Source of the DNA: an uncultured bacterium | GTDB lineage: Bacteria > Cyanobacteriota > Vampirovibrionia > Gastranaerophilales > Gastranaerophilaceae | NCBI GenBank assembly: GCA_949288725.1 | Contig: CASELF010000017.1 | Location: 1 to 64,000 of the forward strand | Direction: 5' to 3' | DNA: 64,000 bases | Shown: in pieces, positions 9,950 to 64,000 of the stretch | Layout of the letters: every line of letters starts with the position of its first letter | Numbering within the stretch: position 1 is the first letter of the stretch | Notes under the pieces: generated by a model | Seen by the model: only the letters and a program-made list of their open reading frames with translations | What the model was told of the DNA's origin: nothing | Database searches by the model: none | Made by a program: the position numbers and the translations under genes

Positions 9950-10450
9950 CAATTCACCTCATTTTAATAATGATGTACTACTATAAACGAATTTTTCTAA
10001 CTTAAGGCTGTTAACCCTCTACCGTAATCGGTAAATAACTGCAATTTCAGGGATTTGTAAAACTCGCGAATTGTCCTTTTTTCTTTGGTTTCATATTTTA
10101 GGCACACTTCGCCCAACTTTACTTTTGCATGTTACTCCATCTTAGTACATCAATATTTGTAGTCAAGTTAACACTCATTATTTTTGACAAAATTTTTGCA
10201 AAATTTGTAATAAAAATTTACATTGCATGTTTTAAAAATCACAACACACCCGAAGATTTGATTATGACTGAGTTTGAGTGTCAAGTACCCGACATTATTA
10301 TATAAAATCATTACATAACAAAAGGAATTAGGCAAATAGGTCCCAATTCCTTTTGTAACAAAATATTCAGCCTTTTTGGTTAAAAATCTCACTTTGTTTA
10401 AATTTTTATTTATTTTTAATAAAAAATATTTAAAAATTTTTCATTTTTTA
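9950..10450 (-). promoter_or_regulatory. rpoB upstream region and leader (no gene)
   Basis: About 500 bases without a credible gene. On the minus strand a good sigma70-type promoter is visible: TTGACT (10161-10166), 16 bases, TAAGAT (10139-10144). Transcription from it would give a leader of about 185 nt. In this leader GGAG stands four bases before a three-codon reading frame (ATG CAA AAG TAA, ATG at about 10132), and TACCG-TAAT-CGGTA (10020-10033) can fold as a short hairpin. An open frame at 10168-10392 covers the promoter and looks accidental. Confidence 0.6.
10320..10354 (-). terminator. Probable terminator of the Met-rich orphan gene
   Basis: Inverted repeat AAAAGGAATTAGG / CCCAATTCCTTTT with one mismatch and a 9-nt loop. 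It lies about 100 bases after the stop of the gene at 10451 and upstream of the rpoB promoter. T-runs are short on both sides, so it could act in either direction. Confidence 0.6.
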
Positions 10451-10945
10451 TTAAACAATTCCCATGCCTGGAGTTGTCATTTGCATTGCTGTCATGTGAG
10501 CTTGTTGAGCCATGTCATTCATTTGTTGAGTAATCACTTGATTCAGCATCATATCATTTTGCATGTTTGCCATTTGCATATTAATCATATTATTTCTTCT
10601 ATTTGCCAAATACATATTGGCGATTGCCAAATTACGCATGAATTTTCCATATAGTGAAAGATCTTTTTCCATATCTGCGTTAGGCTCTTTTTTAGAATTG
10701 TACAGTTTTTCCTTAGGCATATACATTTTGTTAAACTCTAACAAGCCATCATAATCTGTATGAATTGTTTTAACATCTTTTCCATCATCCAGTTTTATTG
10801 TTACTCTGCCTTTTGGATCTTTTTCTACAGAAGCCATTTGTTTTTGACCATTTACTTCAACCATGTACTCATATTTTTCGTATTCTTTTGGAGGTTGAAC
10901 ATGAATGGTTGTAATACCATTGACACCATTTACACCACTTACCAT
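10451..10945 (-). CDS. Hypothetical protein with Met/Gln/Asn-rich C-terminus
   Basis: 164 residues from the ATG at 10945, chosen over an upstream in-frame start because AAGGAG lies at ideal distance. I do not recognise a family. The N-terminal half looks like a small beta-rich domain (IHVQPPKEYEKYEYMVEVNG). The last 64 residues contain 14 methionines and many Asn/Gln (for example NMINMQMANMQNDMM), probably one long helix. No signal peptide or membrane segment is visible. It stands alone between the rpoB promoter and other small genes and has its own terminator. It is probably a lineage-restricted protein. Confidence 0.7.
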   Translation of the reverse strand: MVSGVNGVNGITTIHVQPPKEYEKYEYMVEVNGQKQMASVEKDPKGRVTIKLDDGKDVKTIHTDYDGLLEFNKMYMPKEKLYNSKKEPNADMEKDLSLYGKFMRNLAIANMYLANRRNNMINMQMANMQNDMMLNQVITQQMNDMAQQAHMTAMQMTTPGMGIV

Positions 10946-11138
10946 ATTTTCTCCTTTTATAACTTGCACACTATATTATTCTTAAAACATATTTTTTTAA
11001 TTAATTGCTAAAAAGTTTTATACATTTTAAGGCAAAATAGTAAGTATCATTAAATTTCGGGCATATAAACAATGCCTTTACATAATGTTACAATTTATAA
11101 TCAACAACAATCTATAACACAACTAATTTATAAATTAT

Positions 11139-11345
11139 TTACTTATGACGCAAAACAAGATCAATTAACTGCATAACCGTCATGTTTGTTCCATTACATT
11201 TTTTCATGGAATTTGGCAACATGCCGGTCACTAAATTCTTTCGTTCCATAAGTTTGTCTGCTTTTGAATTGAGATAGTCTATTGATTGGTTTAGTTTCTT
11301 TATTCCGCTGGGGATTCTGTAACTTTCGATTCTAAATATTTTCAT
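11139..11345 (-). CDS. Small hypothetical protein, 68 residues
   Basis: The ATG at 11345 is preceded by GGAG five bases upstream (GGAGAAAAT), which decides the start over an earlier in-frame ATG. The product is basic and mostly helical (SIDYLNSKADKLMERKN); I do not recognise it. No signal peptide or cysteine motif is present beyond a single Cys. It lies between the Met-rich orphan and the SNF2 helicase, all on the minus strand, separated by about 85 and 190 bases. Confidence 0.5.
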   Translation of the reverse strand: MKIFRIESYRIPSGIKKLNQSIDYLNSKADKLMERKNLVTGMLPNSMKKCNGTNMTVMQLIDLVLRHK

Positions 11346-11429
11346 ATTTTCTCCACTCATATAATATCCCGTAAAAAATATTTTTGCCAATATATTTCAT
11401 TTATTAACAAAAAATTTTTACATAAATTA

Positions 11430-14400
11430 TTAATCAACAGAGAAAATTTCTCTAATATCGTCCATAGTAAGTGATTTGGTAATATTTCTATCTACAGAAA
11501 TTACGCTATCAACAAGGTTTCTTTTAATAGTTTTAAGTTTTTGAATTTTTTCTTCAACAGTATTTTTAGTAATAAGTCTATATACAAAGACTTTCTTAGT
11601 TTGACCGATACGATATGCTCTATCTGTAGCCTGATCTTCAACAGCAGGGTTCCACCATGGGTCATAGTGAATTACATAATCTGCACCGGTTAAGTTCAAA
11701 CCTGTACCACCGGCTTTCAAACTAATTAAGAAAATTGGTATAGTTGGATCTGTATTAAATCTTTCAACAGCACCTTGTCTATCTTTTGTTTTTCCTGTCA
11801 GATATTCATATTTAATGCCTGATTTATCCAACCAATCTTTTATGATATCAAGCATATCTACAAACTGGCTGAATAACAAAATTCTATGTTTTTCTGAAAT
11901 AATTTCTTCCAACATACCTTTAAGTTTTTCAAACTTACCTGATGAAATAACATTTTTAACATTATTTTTATCATACAATCTTGGGTGACAGCAGATTTGA
12001 CGCATTCTGAGAAGTGCTGAGAATATTGATAATCTGCTCTTTTCAAGTCCGTTTTGTTCGATTGATTTGAACAATTCTTCCTTAGTACTATCAAGAACTT
12101 GTAAATAGAAGTCTCTTTGGTCATCTGTTAATTCACAGTATGCAATGTTTTCTACCTTATCAGGAAGATCTTTTGCTACATCGCGTTTCATACGACGAAG
12201 AATAAACGGATAAATTTGTAATTTCAAACGTTTTTCAACAATTTTGTCCTGATGTTCCATTATCGGATTAACATATCTTGAATTGAAATCCGCCATAGAA
12301 AATAAAAATCCCGGCATTAAAAAGTCAAATACGGACCACAATTCTTCTAATTTGTTTTCAATAGGAGTACCTGACAACGCAAGTTTGTGTTGTGAAGTTA
12401 ATTGTTTTACGGCTTGCGCAGTTTGAGATGTTGCATTTTTAATATTTTGAGATTCATCTAAAATAATATAACGGAAATTTATGTCTTTTAATTTTTTAAT
12501 ATCACGTCTTAAAAGTGCATAACTTGTTATTACAACATCATACTCAGGAATTTTATCGAAAAATTGTTTTCTTTCGCCACCTTGCAATTTCAAACATGAA
12601 AGTGTTGGGGCAAATTTTTGAATTTCAGCCTCCCAGTTAAATACAACAGTTGTCGGTGCAATTACTAAAGATGGCATTGCTCCGTCTTCTTCTTTGGCTT
12701 TTTGCAAAACCGTCAAGGCTTGCAATGTTTTTCCAAGCCCCATATCATCTGCCAAAATTCCGTTCAGTCCATATTTATACATAAACCAAAGCCAGCCAAA
12801 ACCTTTTAGTTGATATTCACGAAATTCTGCATTAATTCCCTTAGGCAGTTTCAATTCTTCTACTGTTGAAAATGTTGACATCTGTTCCCAGAAGGTTTTA
12901 AATCTTTCACTTAATATCAACTCAACATCTAAATTTTTAAGTTCGTTAATCAAACCTGCTCGATATGTTTTTACAGTAAATCTGTTATCAGGGTTTCTAT
13001 ATACGTCAAATGAGTTAAATGCTCTCATCATAGCGTATATATTTTGTGCAGGATATTCAACAAATCCAAGACTTCTAATTCGAGCATATTTTTCACCGCT
13101 TTGAATAGTTTCATATATTTCATCAAAATTGATTATCTCATCACCAACTTGACCATATATACTTATATCAAAACTATCCGGCTGTTCTTCTGAAAAATCG
13201 ATTTTGGCACACATTCTAAACGGTTGATCCATCAATTTGAAAAATGACATATCATCTTTTTCTTCAAATCGCCAGCCATCTCCTGCCTGTTTTAAGTAAT
13301 AATTATAAAAATCTATAGCATTTTCTTTTTCCAGTACCAAATTATTTGTCTGCATAGGAACAAATTTACAAGCCAAAAGCATTGCATACGCTTCGTTTTC
13401 ATGTTTGATATTGCGTTTTACCCAATATATTAAATCTTCATCAGGCTTTTTCACTGCAATATATTGTGCCTTATCAGATGAAGTTTTTGAATATGGAACT
13501 CTTACTCCGTCATATTCAAAATCCAAAAATGCTTTTAATGATTGGTCATAATCAATGCCCATTGTTACAACGTTGATTGGCGGACGCTGTTCTAACATTA
13601 ATTTTGAAATTTTTTCATCTACAACAACATCCATGACCTCTTGTAATTTTGGCAAATCTTCATATATAAATTTACCGCAATCAGAATCTTTTAAATCCGT
13701 AAATGAAGATTTTATAATGTTTTGAGGAAGACTTTGAATTGCAACATTTGTAGGGAAAATAATATTTTTATATCTTCCCCATTTTAAATGTCTTGAAAAA
13801 TACCTGACCTCTTCAAACGGATAAACATCATCCACATCAGGTCTTTGCCATTCCAAAGATAATAAAAGCGTTCCAGGTGTATTAGATGTATTCACATACA
13901 AAACTAATTTCCATTCATTATCAGTAAATTTAAGACGTTCTTTTGTCTTTTCATCAAGAACTTCATCAGCCTTTGCCAGTAATGAAAACATTGGTCCGAA
14001 TTTTGAAATAGGAATATCATACCAGCCGGCCTTTTTATCTTGTCTTGAAATCTTCAATAACTGTTGAAATATCAAGACTTCAATTTTTTGTGATGAATTA
14101 AGTTCAAAATCAGGATTCTGTTTCTGCGCTTCAATTACACTGCGCAAAATAGGCTCTATCTGACGAACAACCTTACCGGTTTCCCTTGAACGAACCAAAA
14201 TTGAAAAGAAATTTGCCTTTCTTTTTGGGTTAAAGTGAAAAATATAACTGCCTTGAGGTTCTTCTTTTAATTCGGTGTTCTCGTCAGGAAAATCAAACTC
14301 CATACCGAATTTTGTTTCCAACCAATCTTCATAAGCATGTTCATCTATTGCTTTTAAAGCAACCGCTACAGCATGTTTACACCATTCCTCTTTTAATGGA

Positions 14401-58739: not shown

Positions 58740-59135
58740 GGGGACGTTTTGGATTTGACAGGATGTTTGGTGAAAATAGGTTGCGAGTCCGAGCGCTGTT
58801 CTCGGTTATCAACGAGCAAAACAAATTAAATGCTAACGTAATTGAAGGCAACTTTGCACCAAGAAGAGCTTATGCTTTGGCTGCTTAGTTTGTAAATAGC
58901 TACTCATAAAGCCCAGCTTGCCGGTTTTATGGGTCAATGATGCAAGACGCAGTGTTGCAATGATAGTAACAACATCAAGACAACTATCAAAGGTTTAGAG
59001 TTTCCTTTAAATAAAACCTAGGGCTGATTTAACGGTTTTGATACTTTCCGGAATCAGTTGAGCTGATAAGTACCTACACTCGTAGAAATCTGTCTTGATC
59101 CATTTTGGACAGGGGTTCGACTCCCCTCGTCTCCA
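58740..59135 (+). ncRNA. ssrA: tmRNA
   Basis: 396 bases. The 5' end GGGGACG pairs with the 3' end CGTCTCC to form the acceptor stem, with the G3-U70 pair needed for alanylation and discriminator A at 59135. The following TTTTGGATTTGACAGG and the T-arm GGGGTTCGACTCCCC are the universal tmRNA landmarks. CCA is not encoded. The tag frame runs from GCT at 58832 to TAG at 58886-58888 and encodes ANVIEGNFAPRRAYALAA, ending in the ALAA degron. It rescues stalled ribosomes with SmpB. The 3' end is also the attachment site of the element to the right; the intact acceptor stem shows the gene was kept functional after insertion. Confidence 0.97.
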
Positions 59136-60585
59136 GATTATGTAACTTTATAGCATACTCAAAGGCTAAAATAAGCGGAAAATCTATCGTTTCACCGTCA
59201 AAAATGGGGTTCGATATTAACAAATTCATCAATTTTCTTTTTTCTTCTGATGATTGGTTCAAATATAGTTGTGGTGCGTCTTTACAGAGGTTCAACAATA
59301 GTTCAACATTTCCCACAAACTCATTACCCGCTTTTGCAATTTTTTCATATTTAATCAGTGCAACATCAAGTTCATGTTGCCATTCGTCACGTTTAGATAT
59401 ATATGTTTCGGTGTCAATAATACCGTCGCATTTATCCGTGTACAATTGCGAAAGTCGTCTTTGTAATAGTTTAATTTTTTTGTTTAATCCGTCAGCACTT
59501 ACACATGCAAATTCACTTTCCATGTTTATAAGTTCTTTTGCTATGCTTATAATTCCGGAAATACATTCTTCACTAAAATATAAATTATTTAAAACGTGTT
59601 CTTGAAAAGCGTTTTCAAATTCATCTTGTCTTAATGTGGTGTTTTTGCAACTATGACAACGATAATAAATATAATTACCTTTTTTGTGTCTTCCGTGTTG
59701 CAATTCTGCAATTAAAGGTCTTCCGCAATGCTTACATTTAATAAATCCGGAATACGCAAAATTGTGTTTTTTACGTGCGGTTTTGTATTTGCCTTTTATT
59801 TTTTCTTGCACGTGCATAAATAATTCCGGTGAAATAATCGCGTCGTGCTTTGCATTGTAATATTTTACACCTTTATAAATAAAAATACCGGTGTAAAATT
59901 CATTATGCAATATGTTTTCAATGGTTTTCATCGTGCAATTACGGTTTTTAGGTCTAAAACCGCAGGCATGCATATATTCCGCAAGGGATTTATAAGTGTA
60001 GTTTCCCATTAGGTAACTTTCAAATATTTGTTTTATAAAGGGCGCAACGGTCGGGTCAATAACAAGTTCCTTTTTTCCGGCGTCATTTTGTTTGCTTATA
60101 TACCCCATTGGCGGGCTTGACGGGTAATAACCTTGTGCGCATTTTTCGTTCAAGCCTTTTCGGATTTCTTCCGACAAGTTATCAATGTAATTTTTAGCCA
60201 TTAAAACACGGATTCCGTGCATAAATTTGTCTTGACTTTTCGATTCAGCAGACAATATATTGCCCTCTTTGCAAAAATGTATTGCAAGCCCGTTTAAATC
60301 GTCTAATGTCACATAGTCTTTTAAATTTCTATATAACCGGTCAGTCTTTTCAACAAGTATAATTCGGACAGTTGAATTTTTTTTCAAATATTTCACCATA
60401 TTGTTGAATTGAGTTCGTCCGGCTTTTTTTGCGGTTTCGGATTCAACAAATTCTTCAACTATTGAAATATTATTCTTTTTGGCGTATTCGTGCAAAAGTT
60501 TGATTTGCGCAGGGATTGAAAAACCCTCTTTTTCTTGACGGTCTGATGATACCCTTGCATATAATACAGCCTTTTTAGTCGTCAT
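59074..60585 (-). CDS. Large serine recombinase (integrase)
   Basis: 503 residues from the ATG at 60585; a longer frame starts at TTG. The N-terminal resolvase domain has the catalytic Ser in YARVSSDRQ (about 8-16) and the arginine region LVEKTDRLYRNLKD. A recombinase domain (about 150-260) and a zinc ribbon with CKHCG and CHSCKN follow, then a coiled coil. It catalyses integration and excision without homologous ends. The last 19 residues, ETRGVEPLSKMDQDRFLRV, are the antisense of ssrA's 3' end, so the stop codon belongs to the host gene. It ends the left arm of the element; the next element gene overlaps by 11 bases. Confidence 0.93.
   Translation of the reverse strand: MTTKKAVLYARVSSDRQEKEGFSIPAQIKLLHEYAKKNNISIVEEFVESETAKKAGRTQFNNMVKYLKKNSTVRIILVEKTDRLYRNLKDYVTLDDLNGLAIHFCKEGNILSAESKSQDKFMHGIRVLMAKNYIDNLSEEIRKGLNEKCAQGYYPSSPPMGYISKQNDAGKKELVIDPTVAPFIKQIFESYLMGNYTYKSLAEYMHACGFRPKNRNCTMKTIENILHNEFYTGIFIYKGVKYYNAKHDAIISPELFMHVQEKIKGKYKTARKKHNFAYSGFIKCKHCGRPLIAELQHGRHKKGNYIYYRCHSCKNTTLRQDEFENAFQEHVLNNLYFSEECISGIISIAKELINMESEFACVSADGLNKKIKLLQRRLSQLYTDKCDGIIDTETYISKRDEWQHELDVALIKYEKIAKAGNEFVGNVELLLNLCKDAPQLYLNQSSEEKRKLMNLLISNPIFDGETIDFPLILAFEYAIKLHNLETRGVEPLSKMDQDRFLRV
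59077..59135. other. Probable left attachment site (attL) in ssrA 3' end
   Basis: The element begins directly at the 3' end of ssrA: its recombinase gene is read toward and into these bases. The exact crossover cannot be placed because the right junction lies beyond the window; a copy of part of this sequence is expected there. Confidence 0.6.
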
Positions 60586-60955
60586 TTTCCGTTGATTCCC
60601 CGCAGTATTCAAAAGGTATATTAAAAGCCTTTGTGTAATTTTCTAATGCTTTTAACAACAAATCCGTTTCACCTAAACAAAACATATATTCTGAATGCGT
60701 TGTCATTCTTATTGCAAAATATACAAAACCCTTGAATGTCCATGTGCGGATATTATAAACATCTTTCATATTATCCGAAATAGTTTCATTGTCTTGTGAA
60801 ATCGTGAAACATTGATTCTCAAAATTTAGTTGACACTTGCCCTTTTTAATATTTGTAATTTCATTATGGTTTATATAACCTTTTATAAAATCCAATTTGA
60901 AGCCGAATTTTGCATTTTTGCGGTCAAATAAATTATTAAATAAACGTTTAAACAT
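60575..60955 (-). CDS. Hypothetical element protein
   Basis: 126 residues from the ATG at 60955 with AAGGA upstream (a GTG six bases earlier would be too close). No recognised domain. The content is mixed alpha/beta with aromatic-rich strands (TWTFKGFVYFAIRMTTHSEY). It lies between the recombinase and the ImmA-like gene in a four-gene leftward lysogeny-type block, so a role in integration control or immunity is possible but not shown. Confidence 0.55.
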   Translation of the reverse strand: MFKRLFNNLFDRKNAKFGFKLDFIKGYINHNEITNIKKGKCQLNFENQCFTISQDNETISDNMKDVYNIRTWTFKGFVYFAIRMTTHSEYMFCLGETDLLLKALENYTKAFNIPFEYCGESTENDD

Positions 60956-60967
60956 ATACACTTCCTT

Positions 60968-61186
60968 TTATATGTGTGCTAACATTTCAAGTTCACTAAC
61001 GTTTTTGTTACGGTCAAAATCGTTATTTTTTATATGGTTTAATTCGTGTTTGAATGCTTTTTGTAGGCAGGCATGCGACATTCTTGAATTTAAAATTATT
61101 GTGTAGTAATCATCACCGGAATGATACATTGTAAAAGCATTGATTTTTTCCGGCAAATTTTTGTAAACAACCATGTAATTATCCAT
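60968..61186 (-). CDS. Small ImmA/IrrE-like metallopeptidase
   Basis: 72 residues with the zinc motif KHELNHIKNNDFD near 45-57 (HExxH as HELNH). ImmA/IrrE proteins cut cI-type repressors to induce mobile elements. This one is much shorter than the usual 120-170 residues and holds little beyond the catalytic helix. It overlaps the repressor gene by eight bases, the classic arrangement of a repressor with its protease. Confidence 0.7.
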   Translation of the reverse strand: MDNYMVVYKNLPEKINAFTMYHSGDDYYTIILNSRMSHACLQKAFKHELNHIKNNDFDRNKNVSELEMLAHI

Positions 61187-61556
61187 TAGACGTTCCCTTT
61201 ATTGAATTTGCAACGGTTATAATGGCGCGCACTTGTTCCGGCGTCATGTCACGCATTGCGTCAAATAATATTCTATAATCGGGATTGTCATGTAATTCTT
61301 GCGCTAATTCCGCAGTTTTGCGGTCAAGATAATAAGGGGATTTGGGTTCTGTTTCCCATTCAAAAAAGTCATCAATACTACAGTCTAATGCTTTTGCAAT
61401 AGCCTTTAAAAATTTTAAAGTTGGGTTTTTGTTGAATCCGCCTAAAATCTTTGAAATAGTGCTTTTGCTAAAATTTGTCATACTTGCCAATTCGTCGTAA
61501 GTATAATTTTTAGATTTTAACATTTCTTTCATTTTATTGATACTAAATTCGGGCAT
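61179..61556 (-). CDS. cI-like HTH repressor
   Basis: 125 residues. An N-terminal Cro/CI helix-turn-helix (about 14-60: YDELASMTNFSKSTISKILGG, LKAIAKALDCSIDDFFEW) is followed by a short C-terminal region without a LexA-type peptidase domain, consistent with cleavage by the linked ImmA-like protein instead of self-cleavage. GGAAAGG precedes the ATG at 61556. It faces a Cro-like gene over 205 bases carrying repeats. Confidence 0.85.
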   Translation of the reverse strand: MPEFSINKMKEMLKSKNYTYDELASMTNFSKSTISKILGGFNKNPTLKFLKAIAKALDCSIDDFFEWETEPKSPYYLDRKTAELAQELHDNPDYRILFDAMRDMTPEQVRAIITVANSIKGTSNG

Positions 61557-62112: not shown

Positions 62113-62463
62113 GTGAACAAAAAAACAAAACAGTTATTACAAATTACCAAAAACGCATATTCGCAGGCGTTAGAGGTTTTAGGATTTGTTAAACAAAAAG
62201 AACAAATGAGCGACCAAAAATTAAATACAGAATTAGAACGTCGCATTCGGCAAATCCGTGAAGTAAACAGTCAAAAAATCATTATGAACGTGTATGTTCC
62301 GCAAATAATCAAGGAAACGTTAGAAAAAGACAATTACTTGATTTCGCAGGCTCAAGCGTTGCCAATTGCGGTTGCAAAGTTCAATCAAGAATTACAAGCC
62401 GGAAGAATTGATTCTTTATTCAATTTTGTTGTTCCGGAAGATGAAAGCGTAAAGGGGGAATAA
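62113..62463 (+). CDS. Hypothetical element protein
   Basis: 116 residues from a GTG at 62113 with AGAGAGG nine bases upstream; the longer open frame overlaps the previous gene and lacks a ribosome site. Two helical segments (KKTKQLLQITKNAYSQALEVL; LNTELERRIRQIREVN). No family recognised. Its stop overlaps the ssb start by one base, so it is in the early operon. Confidence 0.6.
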   Translation: MNKKTKQLLQITKNAYSQALEVLGFVKQKEQMSDQKLNTELERRIRQIREVNSQKIIMNVYVPQIIKETLEKDNYLISQAQALPIAVAKFNQELQAGRIDSLFNFVVPEDESVKGE

Positions 62464-62867
62464 TGGGAAAAACCAAAACAAATCAAGTAGTTTTATTAGG
62501 ACGTGTCGGTTGGAAAGATTTTAAATATACCGAAAATGGAACAGCGATTGCAACAATCAATCTTGGTGTGAAACGCGGTCAAGATAAATGGAACAATTTT
62601 TTCATTAAGTTTTTCAATACAAAAATGAAAAGTATTGCGGAAGAAGTCGCGGAACTTGTTTCAGAGGGTGACTATATACAAGTAACCGGACGACTTATTG
62701 AAACAAAATTCATTCCAAAAGGTTGGGAAAATCAACTTGACGAAAACGGCAATCAAAAAACCGTTTCAAAAATTGAGATAGTCGCGCAATCATACCGCAA
62801 AGTCTATTACAACGAAGAAACGGAAGAATTTGACTATATAGGCGGTGACTATGGTCAAGATTGTTAA
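62463..62867 (+). CDS. ssb: Single-stranded DNA-binding protein
   Basis: 134 residues with one OB fold: NQVVLLGRVGWKDFKYTENG, IATINLGVKRG, WNNFFIKFFNTKMKSIAEEV, VTGRLIETKF. The C-terminus ends DYGQDC instead of the acidic D-D-I-P-F tail of host SSBs, as seen in many phage SSBs, so it may not bind host repair partners. It protects single-stranded DNA during element replication. Confidence 0.85.
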   Translation: MGKTKTNQVVLLGRVGWKDFKYTENGTAIATINLGVKRGQDKWNNFFIKFFNTKMKSIAEEVAELVSEGDYIQVTGRLIETKFIPKGWENQLDENGNQKTVSKIEIVAQSYRKVYYNEETEEFDYIGGDYGQDC

Positions 62868-63405
62868 AGTAGTAAACGGACAAGAACGTGTTTATGAAGT
62901 CGGAAGAAATTATGTTATAGGCGAAAGGATAAAAGGCGACAAAGGCGGTTATAAATTGCTACATCACACCGACGGTTTCACCTCGACAATATACTTTCAA
63001 TCAAATAATTTCTTCCACGATAAAACACCAAAAAATATTGGTTGCCTATTGTATGACTTCACAAACGATATTGTAACTTATAGAAAATATGGTTTCAAGA
63101 CTTCCGAACATGAATTTCACAAAACCGATTCAATCGGCTTGAACTGGGATATTGTTTCAAATTTATGTCCGAAAGACCTTGTTTCGGTTGTTGAAGTTCA
63201 AGGCAATAAAAAAATTGTGCGTTCAATATCTGTTTCAAAGGCATTAAAATTTCAAGATTTCAAATATTTCAAACATCTTGGTTATGAAAAGCAAGTTTTC
63301 ATTCCGGCATGTGAATTTAAAACAAAAGAATACGAAATCAAGAAAAAGCGCAAGAGGGGGTTAAATAGTGGAAAGACTAACAAACAGAGAACAACAAGTC
63401 TTTAA
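62851..63405 (+). CDS. Hypothetical element protein
   Basis: 184 residues from the ATG at 62851 (AGGCGG upstream; an earlier GTG is too close), overlapping ssb by 17 bases. Beta-rich N-terminal part (KIVKVVNGQERVYEVGRNYV), basic C-terminus (EIKKKRKRGLNSGKTNKQRT). Not recognised; probably soluble and nucleic-acid associated by charge. Confidence 0.55.
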   Translation: MVKIVKVVNGQERVYEVGRNYVIGERIKGDKGGYKLLHHTDGFTSTIYFQSNNFFHDKTPKNIGCLLYDFTNDIVTYRKYGFKTSEHEFHKTDSIGLNWDIVSNLCPKDLVSVVEVQGNKKIVRSISVSKALKFQDFKYFKHLGYEKQVFIPACEFKTKEYEIKKKRKRGLNSGKTNKQRTTSL

Positions 63406-63550
63406 CGCTATTTTAGCCGGAAAAAGGACTTGCGAAATACGAAAAGAAATGAATATTGCGACAAGTACAATTCGCACTTATTACAAACACATCTATTCAA
63501 AATTATTTGTAAATTCAAAAAAAGAACTAATTTTGAAATACAAGCAGTAA
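63368..63550 (+). CDS. Stand-alone LuxR/GerE-type HTH protein
   Basis: 60 residues that form little more than a GerE helix-turn-helix: LTNREQQVFNAILAGKRTCE, IRKEMNIATSTIRTYYKHIYSKL. Start GTG at 63368 with AAGAGGGGG upstream, overlapping the previous gene by 38 bases. It may act as a sigma-70-region-4-like or phage late regulator; no sensor domain is attached. Confidence 0.7.
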   Translation: MERLTNREQQVFNAILAGKRTCEIRKEMNIATSTIRTYYKHIYSKLFVNSKKELILKYKQ

Positions 63551-63561
63551 AGGAAGCAAAA

Positions 63562-64000
63562 ATGAAAAATAGTAATAAAGCAAAAAGAGAAATCAGAATT
63601 GAAATAAACAAATCAGTTTTAAAGAAAATAATTAAATCACATAAAAATTTCGCTAGTAAATATGAAATAAGTTCTATTTTAGCAAATTTTCATTTTGAAC
63701 TAGCAAATAATCATTTGGAAATCGCGTCAACAGACGGGAATCGTTTATTGATTAGTACAATTGAAGTGAACAATCCGAACAATGATTTTTGTTCGTTTAA
63801 TGTTAATGGCGGGCTTTTATCAAAATTGGTTATATTCAAAGGTAGTGTCATTGACTGGCTTGAAGTCGTCATTTTAAAAGATTCTATTCAATTTAATGAC
63901 AATGAATTTGGAATCCGGCAGGAATTTAAACTTGTTGAAGCACAGTTTCCAAAATATAAACAACTCATTCCGGATTATGGCAATGAAAATTTTGCAATCG
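63562..64000 (+). CDS. Sliding-clamp (DnaN)-like protein lacking domain I, 3' part missing
   Basis: 146 residues visible, frame open at the right edge; ATG at 63562 with AAAGGAAG upstream. The segment LEIASTDGNRLLISTIEV (about 52-69) matches the beta-clamp domain II hallmark (A-T-D-G-x-R-L). KLVEAQFPKYKQLIP (about 122-136) matches the end of domain II (E-G-x-F-P-x-Y-x-x-[LV]-I-P). In standard DnaN these lie near residues 175 and 240, after a whole domain I; here the first comes at about residue 55, so domain I appears to be absent. It would serve as an element-encoded processivity factor or decoy for host polymerase. It follows an SSB gene in the same early operon. Confidence 0.7.
   Translation, partial: MKNSNKAKREIRIEINKSVLKKIIKSHKNFASKYEISSILANFHFELANNHLEIASTDGNRLLISTIEVNNPNNDFCSFNVNGGLLSKLVIFKGSVIDWLEVVILKDSIQFNDNEFGIRQEFKLVEAQFPKYKQLIPDYGNENFAI

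Follow-up and report, generated by a model that had tools for sequence, protein, structure and literature searches.

A prophage of Gastranaerophilales encodes a short sliding clamp predicted to keep the partner pocket of DnaN and to lack the parts that close its ring

Cellular sliding clamps work by encircling DNA, and the locus described here raises the question of what a clamp homologue that has lost its first domain might do for a phage. The gene lies at the end of the window, by which we mean the whole 64,000-nucleotide stretch analysed (positions 1 to 64,000 of contig CASELF010000017.1, here C17, assembly GCA_949288725.1, from an uncultured member of the Gastranaerophilaceae). In a preliminary description, it was read as a mobile-element DnaN homologue that starts at domain II, and it was proposed either that subunits made of domains II and III form a six-domain ring of three, or that the protein hooks onto the host clamp or its loader. 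The features of the locus are collected in Table 1.

Table 1. Features of the short clamp gene and of the adjoining prophage genes within the window.
Feature	Position	Strand	Evidence
Short clamp gene, first 146 codons in the window	63562..64000	+	Pfam PF02767 at residues 14-131
AAGGA, likely ribosome-binding site (Shine-Dalgarno-like) of the clamp gene	63550..63554	+	sequence
Domain II, helix 1 (residues 17-31), which faces DNA in normal clamps; with +6 over 19 aligned residues an unusually basic stretch	63610..63654	+	
TDGNRL (residues 57-62), subsite I of the clamp-binding-motif (CBM) pocket	63730..63747	+	
FPKYKQL (residues 129-135), with pocket residues P130, Q134, L135	63946..63966	+	
Start of the retained second half of domain III (about residue 140); extends beyond the window to LLMPVQIR, which completes the pocket	63979..64000	+	
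60-aa LuxR/GerE-type helix-turn-helix protein, directly upstream of the clamp, same operon	63368..63550	+	Pfam GerE 1.7e-14
Phage protein of 186 aa, no Pfam match; has a relative in locus L043	62845..63405	+	
Phage SSB, with relatives close to the short clamp in three other loci	62463..62867	+	Pfam SSB 1.9e-7
CI/Cro-type repressor	61179..61556	-	Pfam HTH_26 4.6e-15
Large serine recombinase (integrase), left end of the prophage	59074..60612	-	Pfam Resolvase/Recombinase

The reading frame that opens with the ATG at 63562 crosses the window edge and stops at C17:64170, giving a complete protein of 202 residues in which TDGNRLL occupies positions 57-63 and EAQFPKYKQLIP positions 126-137. The Pfam model of the central clamp domain (DNA_pol3_beta_2, PF02767) is matched over its whole length by residues 14-131 (E 6.3e-7, 30.1 bits, against a curated cut-off of 27 bits). 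The domain I model (PF00712) yields only a sub-threshold match to the same domain II residues (E 0.087), a cross-match of the kind that clamp domains usually give, and the 202-residue protein has no match to the domain III model (PF02768). Elsewhere in the genome, PF00712 and PF02768 are matched above the cut-off by nothing but two full-length dnaN genes, one on contig C7 and one on C88. A wrong start, a frameshift or an assembly artefact is ruled out by ten homologues that are equally short and likewise carry no upstream domain I. The absence of domain I is thus genuine, in agreement with the preliminary description, and the missing domain has not moved to the C-terminus. Two full-length dnaN genes are present in this one assembly (C88, L001; C7, L002), against a single match in most genomes of the genus; the copy on C7 is close to those of the genus, whereas that on C88 is more distant and may represent contamination or an acquired gene.

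The remainder of the protein departs from what had been proposed. The approximately 65 residues that follow domain II correspond only to the second beta-alpha-beta-beta-beta half of domain III (GLNSQFFKDL...LLMPVQIR), the first half being gone. Once this first half is removed from the DnaN proteins of E. coli and of the host (both copies), the short clamp aligns with them from end to end, GLNSQFFKDL being matched with GFNVSYVLDVL and LLMPVQIR with VVMPMRL. In addition, the profile of the short-clamp family matches the same half-domain in a Rickettsia clamp (residues 333-389 of the solved chain), a match that is weak by itself. AlphaFold2 models of the window protein and of one divergent family member (pLDDT 84 and 83, pTM 0.82 each) both contain three beta-alpha-beta-beta-beta units, and in VIA-align superpositions they follow DnaN domains II-III apart from one half-domain, which is skipped, the best superposition (Z 18.6, 178 residues, 2.2 A) being with DnaN 132-396. 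The predicted fold also superposes on PCNA (1plq; Z 15.7, 173 residues), and BFVD holds further phage proteins of approximately 185-270 residues with this fold. To judge from the alignments and models, the subunit therefore consists of three half-domains, that is, 1.5 domains, made up of domain II and the second half of domain III, and three such subunits would not complete the six-domain ring that had been envisaged.

We then compared the retained and missing segments with the residues that line the CBM pocket and the dimer interface of the bacterial clamp, as listed in a review (PMC11139829). The pocket of the window protein is identical to that of the host DnaN on C7 at 18 of 18 positions, compared with 22% at the other aligned positions, and to that of the copy on C88 at 17 of 18, compared with 20%. 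As controls, the pocket of E. coli DnaN matches those of the two host DnaNs at only 9-10 of the 18 positions, and full-length DnaNs that are 25-32% identical elsewhere match at 9-15. Across the short family, the pocket columns show a mean pairwise identity of 0.59 against 0.31 for the rest, a value reached by none of 20,000 random column sets; some members nevertheless share only 8-12 of the 18 residues with the host DnaN, the reference for every member being the DnaN of the window's host, not that of its own. The interface residues I78, F106, I272, L273, E298 and E304, by contrast, all align to segments that are missing from the short clamp. With the first half of domain III go the helix of the dimer interface (I272/L273 in E. 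coli) and the acidic residues of that interface (E298/E304), and because domain I is missing as well, both sides of the bacterial dimer interface are gone. Judged by alignment, the whole CBM pocket is preserved in the window protein; what is kept serves to grip partners, and what is lost serves to close the ring in bacterial clamps.

The window protein is one of a family. A search that covered 46 genomes at genus, 288 at family and 383 at order level identified ten further short clamps within the order, all encoded by intact frames, 194-225 residues long, with the same boundaries and mostly 21-44% identical, the closer pairs being L103/L104 and L039/L042. The genomes whose dnaN is closest to that of the host are those of Candidatus Gastranaerophilales or Melainabacteria. 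Those short-clamp loci for which enough sequence is available are phage-like. Five of them carry a large serine recombinase, four a relative of the window's SSB, four a relative of its DnaC/IstB-like ATPase and three relatives of its terminase, portal and capsid genes; others encode replication-initiation proteins (rep_org_N, rep_O, Lin1244), a DnaB-type helicase, or RecT with YqaJ.

In the window itself, the gene lies in a prophage, as the reading of it as a mobile-element DnaN homologue had anticipated, and it sits in the early replication operon of this temperate phage together with SSB, a Dam methylase and a helicase-loader-like ATPase. The prophage also encodes a tail sheath, baseplate J and an amidase, which point to a contractile tail. 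No DNA-dependent DNA polymerase was found among the prophage proteins scanned, a set that takes in part of the small frames. A regular expression for the CBM, applied to the phage's own proteins, gave scattered matches that are not conserved among the loci, except for chance-like ones in the portal protein and the integrase, and we therefore propose no phage partner for the clamp. Two further elements of the prophage may be recorded here. A 72-aa frame beside the CI-type repressor (60968-61186, minus strand) carries an HELNH metallopeptidase-like motif and by eye resembles ImmA-type peptidases. Beyond the window, a probable diversity-generating retroelement (C17 ~84.8-88.1 kb; L005:8793-10460, 10339-10454, 10629-10744, 10992-12131) comprises a reverse transcriptase (RVT_1) and a repeat of 116 nt, which lies at the 3' end of a gene for 555 aa and has a 95% copy upstream of the transcriptase; five of the six differences between the copies fall at adenines of the template copy.

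Clamps of the same kind also occur in actinophages. The window protein is matched over almost its full length by the profile of PHROG 3007 (E 1.2e-9; residues 20-200 on profile positions 6-185 of 190), as are, in all, seven of nine short-clamp members, and the proteins of this PHROG include Gordonia Matteo gp40, Horus gp57 and Jace gp60, Mycobacterium Tortellini gp57 and Rhodococcus REQ2 gp51. Their architecture, too, is domain II followed by the second half of domain III, end to end, and most are located in temperate-phage early regions. A comparison of the Gastranaerophilales and actinophage groups by hhalign covers 187 columns (probability 96.8%, E 2.4e-10). The actinophage clamps, approximately 20% identical, carry tails at either end and form a separate, well-supported clade. 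The window protein found no match in a phage collection by tblastn, the member L038 found weak Gordonia matches only (E 0.3), which provided the route to the PHROG 3007 members, and scans of viral contigs with five single proteins and of genome contigs with the window protein returned no relative. In the tree, each short group forms its own clade; the two lie on the same side of one branch, as a single origin would have it, but this branch is unsupported (68/49), and a grouping of the short clamps with Gastranaerophilales dnaN is neither rejected (p 0.45) nor demonstrated. One or two shortening events are both compatible with this tree.

The actinophage proteins carry conflicting names. Their depositors annotated them as 'DNA polymerase III sliding clamp' or beta subunit, whereas PHROGs and RefSeq label the same proteins 'RusA-like Holliday junction resolvase' (PHROG 3007 and 12598; RefSeq NC_070798, NC_048039, NC_047974, NC_041888, NC_016652). 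Pfam gave no match to a RusA domain, up to E 1, in either the window protein or Matteo gp40, and Tortellini has a genuine RusA-like gene elsewhere, two genes downstream of its clamp. The resolvase label on these clamp-like proteins thus looks like a misannotation, and as the phage gene library that carries it is in wide use, the architecture can readily escape notice. We found no paper on a truncated phage DnaN and no description of the half-domain loss in the PHROG 3007 phage clamps; Kazlauskas and Venclovas (2011), in their survey of viral replicases, may have mentioned short DnaN-like clamps.

A further common feature is the charge of the side that would face DNA. Helix 1 of domain II carries a mean charge of +4.1 in the short clamps against +1.4 (maximum +3) in 78 full-length DnaNs, a difference whose p-value can serve only as a guide, since the sequences are related. 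A basic tail extends the N-terminus in five of the Gastranaerophilales members and in two Gordonia proteins. In Tortellini and REQ2 there is instead a long C-terminal tail rich in lysine, alanine and proline, and several members, including L036, L037 and Jace, have no basic tail. That the tail switches ends while the core remains unchanged suggests, from sequence comparison, that its charge is what counts.

Of the two possibilities raised at the outset, hooking onto host partners fits better than a ring of three, because the conserved surface is the partner pocket and both halves of the dimer interface are missing. On the strength of sequence and models, we favour a reading to which we would give about an even chance, namely that the short clamp is a phage-encoded, ring-incompetent sliding-clamp module that binds host replication proteins via its pocket. 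A temperate phage that relies on the polymerase of its host would produce it early, and it would bind CBM-bearing host proteins (Pol III alpha, clamp-loader delta, other polymerases) outside a closed ring, holding phage DNA not by encirclement but by the basic inner helix and, in several members, the basic tail. The more likely use would then be to attach the host polymerase to phage DNA in the manner of UL42, although through these contacts it might in addition draw loader and polymerase away from the host clamp, recruitment and sabotage being compatible. In line with this, a non-dimerising E. coli beta still binds DNA, and it binds delta approximately 50 times more tightly than the dimer does; monomeric beta, however, gives E. 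coli Pol III no processivity, so that a function as a tether needs something extra (PMC11139829). Non-ring viral clamps such as UL42 depend on positive charge (PMC9690074). Against the favoured reading, the pocket is conserved in clamps generally, some members agree with the host pocket at only 8-12 of the 18 positions, and several have no basic tail.

The strongest rival of this ringless module is a pure decoy that occupies the CBMs of clamp-loader delta or Pol III and shuts off host replication, without any positive role at the phage fork. The close match of the pocket to that of the host DnaN and the tight binding of delta by non-dimerising beta would suit this purpose. Furthermore, phages are known to attack the same node, N4 gp8 acting on delta and Twort gp168 and G1 gp240 on DnaN (PMC3594737), and a full-length phage clamp, Waterfoul gp48, is toxic on overexpression (PMC9339283). 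A decoy, however, needs neither a basic excess on the DNA side nor basic tails, a temperate phage without a polymerase gene requires Pol III itself, and the clamp gene is placed among replication genes. We therefore consider a pure decoy rather unlikely, if still a serious competitor.

Less probable again is a new kind of ring, in which four subunits of three half-domains supply the twelve halves of a six-domain ring as a non-polar tetramer. Here two subunits would join their halves of domain III into one domain, while their domains II would pair edge to edge; by topological reasoning alone, intradomain and interdomain contacts then alternate correctly, with two-fold axes at both contacts, and the exposed half-domain has indeed lost its natural partner half. 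Yet the first strand of this half-domain (143-149 in the window protein) is already paired within the chain in both models, although single-chain predictions could show nothing else, and a non-polar ring would be without precedent among clamps and unable to offer one common face to a loader. A trimeric ring of two-domain subunits, as in PCNA or T4 gp45, seems very improbable: the superposition on PCNA speaks for it, and E. coli beta*, a shorter beta without domain I, reportedly forms trimers, but beta* retains all of domain III and the short clamp has just 1.5 domains per subunit. A decayed, functionless dnaN remnant, for which nothing but the reduced length speaks, is refuted by the ten further intact members with common boundaries, by the likeness of the family profile to the actinophage proteins from end to end, and by the intact pocket.

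A broader version of the favoured reading, which we advance only tentatively, is that temperate phages of distant phyla use a loader-independent clamp of 1.5 domains, which would hold DNA by charge or as a four-subunit non-polar ring and engage host Pol III by its pocket. If this is true, the short clamp would be a bacterial-virus counterpart of UL42, or else would present a new clamp stoichiometry. Similar shrunken clamps are in any case present in phages of quite different bacteria (Gastranaerophilales and actinobacterial hosts), and the family separates two jobs of a clamp, the ring-closing parts being lost and the partner pocket kept. It makes testable whether a clamp that does not encircle DNA can serve Pol III, and provides a compact natural tool for probing or inhibiting the clamp pocket, a target of antibiotics.

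Among known systems, bacterial DnaN (PF00712/PF02767/PF02768) shares with the short clamp domain II, the second half of domain III and the complete CBM pocket, and differs from it in possessing domain I and the first half of domain III and in a less basic inner helix. E. coli beta* resembles it as a form of DnaN without domain I; beta* is a UV-induced product of a host gene that keeps all of domain III, whereas the short clamp is encoded by phages. T4 gp45 and PCNA have the clamp fold in common with it but build trimeric rings from subunits of two full domains each, in place of three half-domains. To our knowledge, N4 gp8, Twort gp168 and G1 gp240 are not clamp homologues; they possibly share the effect of taking the loader or the clamp from the host (PMC3594737). 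In manner of working, the likeness is to herpesvirus UL42, which combines a clamp fold without a ring, charge in place of encirclement and a partner site of its own (PMC9690074), and the short clamp, known from sequence and models, is predicted to show the same combination of clamp fold and enhanced positive charge on the DNA side. UL42 and UL44 do not occur among the structural matches listed, which has no bearing either way. UL42 is nevertheless a two-domain protein of a eukaryotic virus that serves its own polymerase, and the comparison concerns how the two would work.
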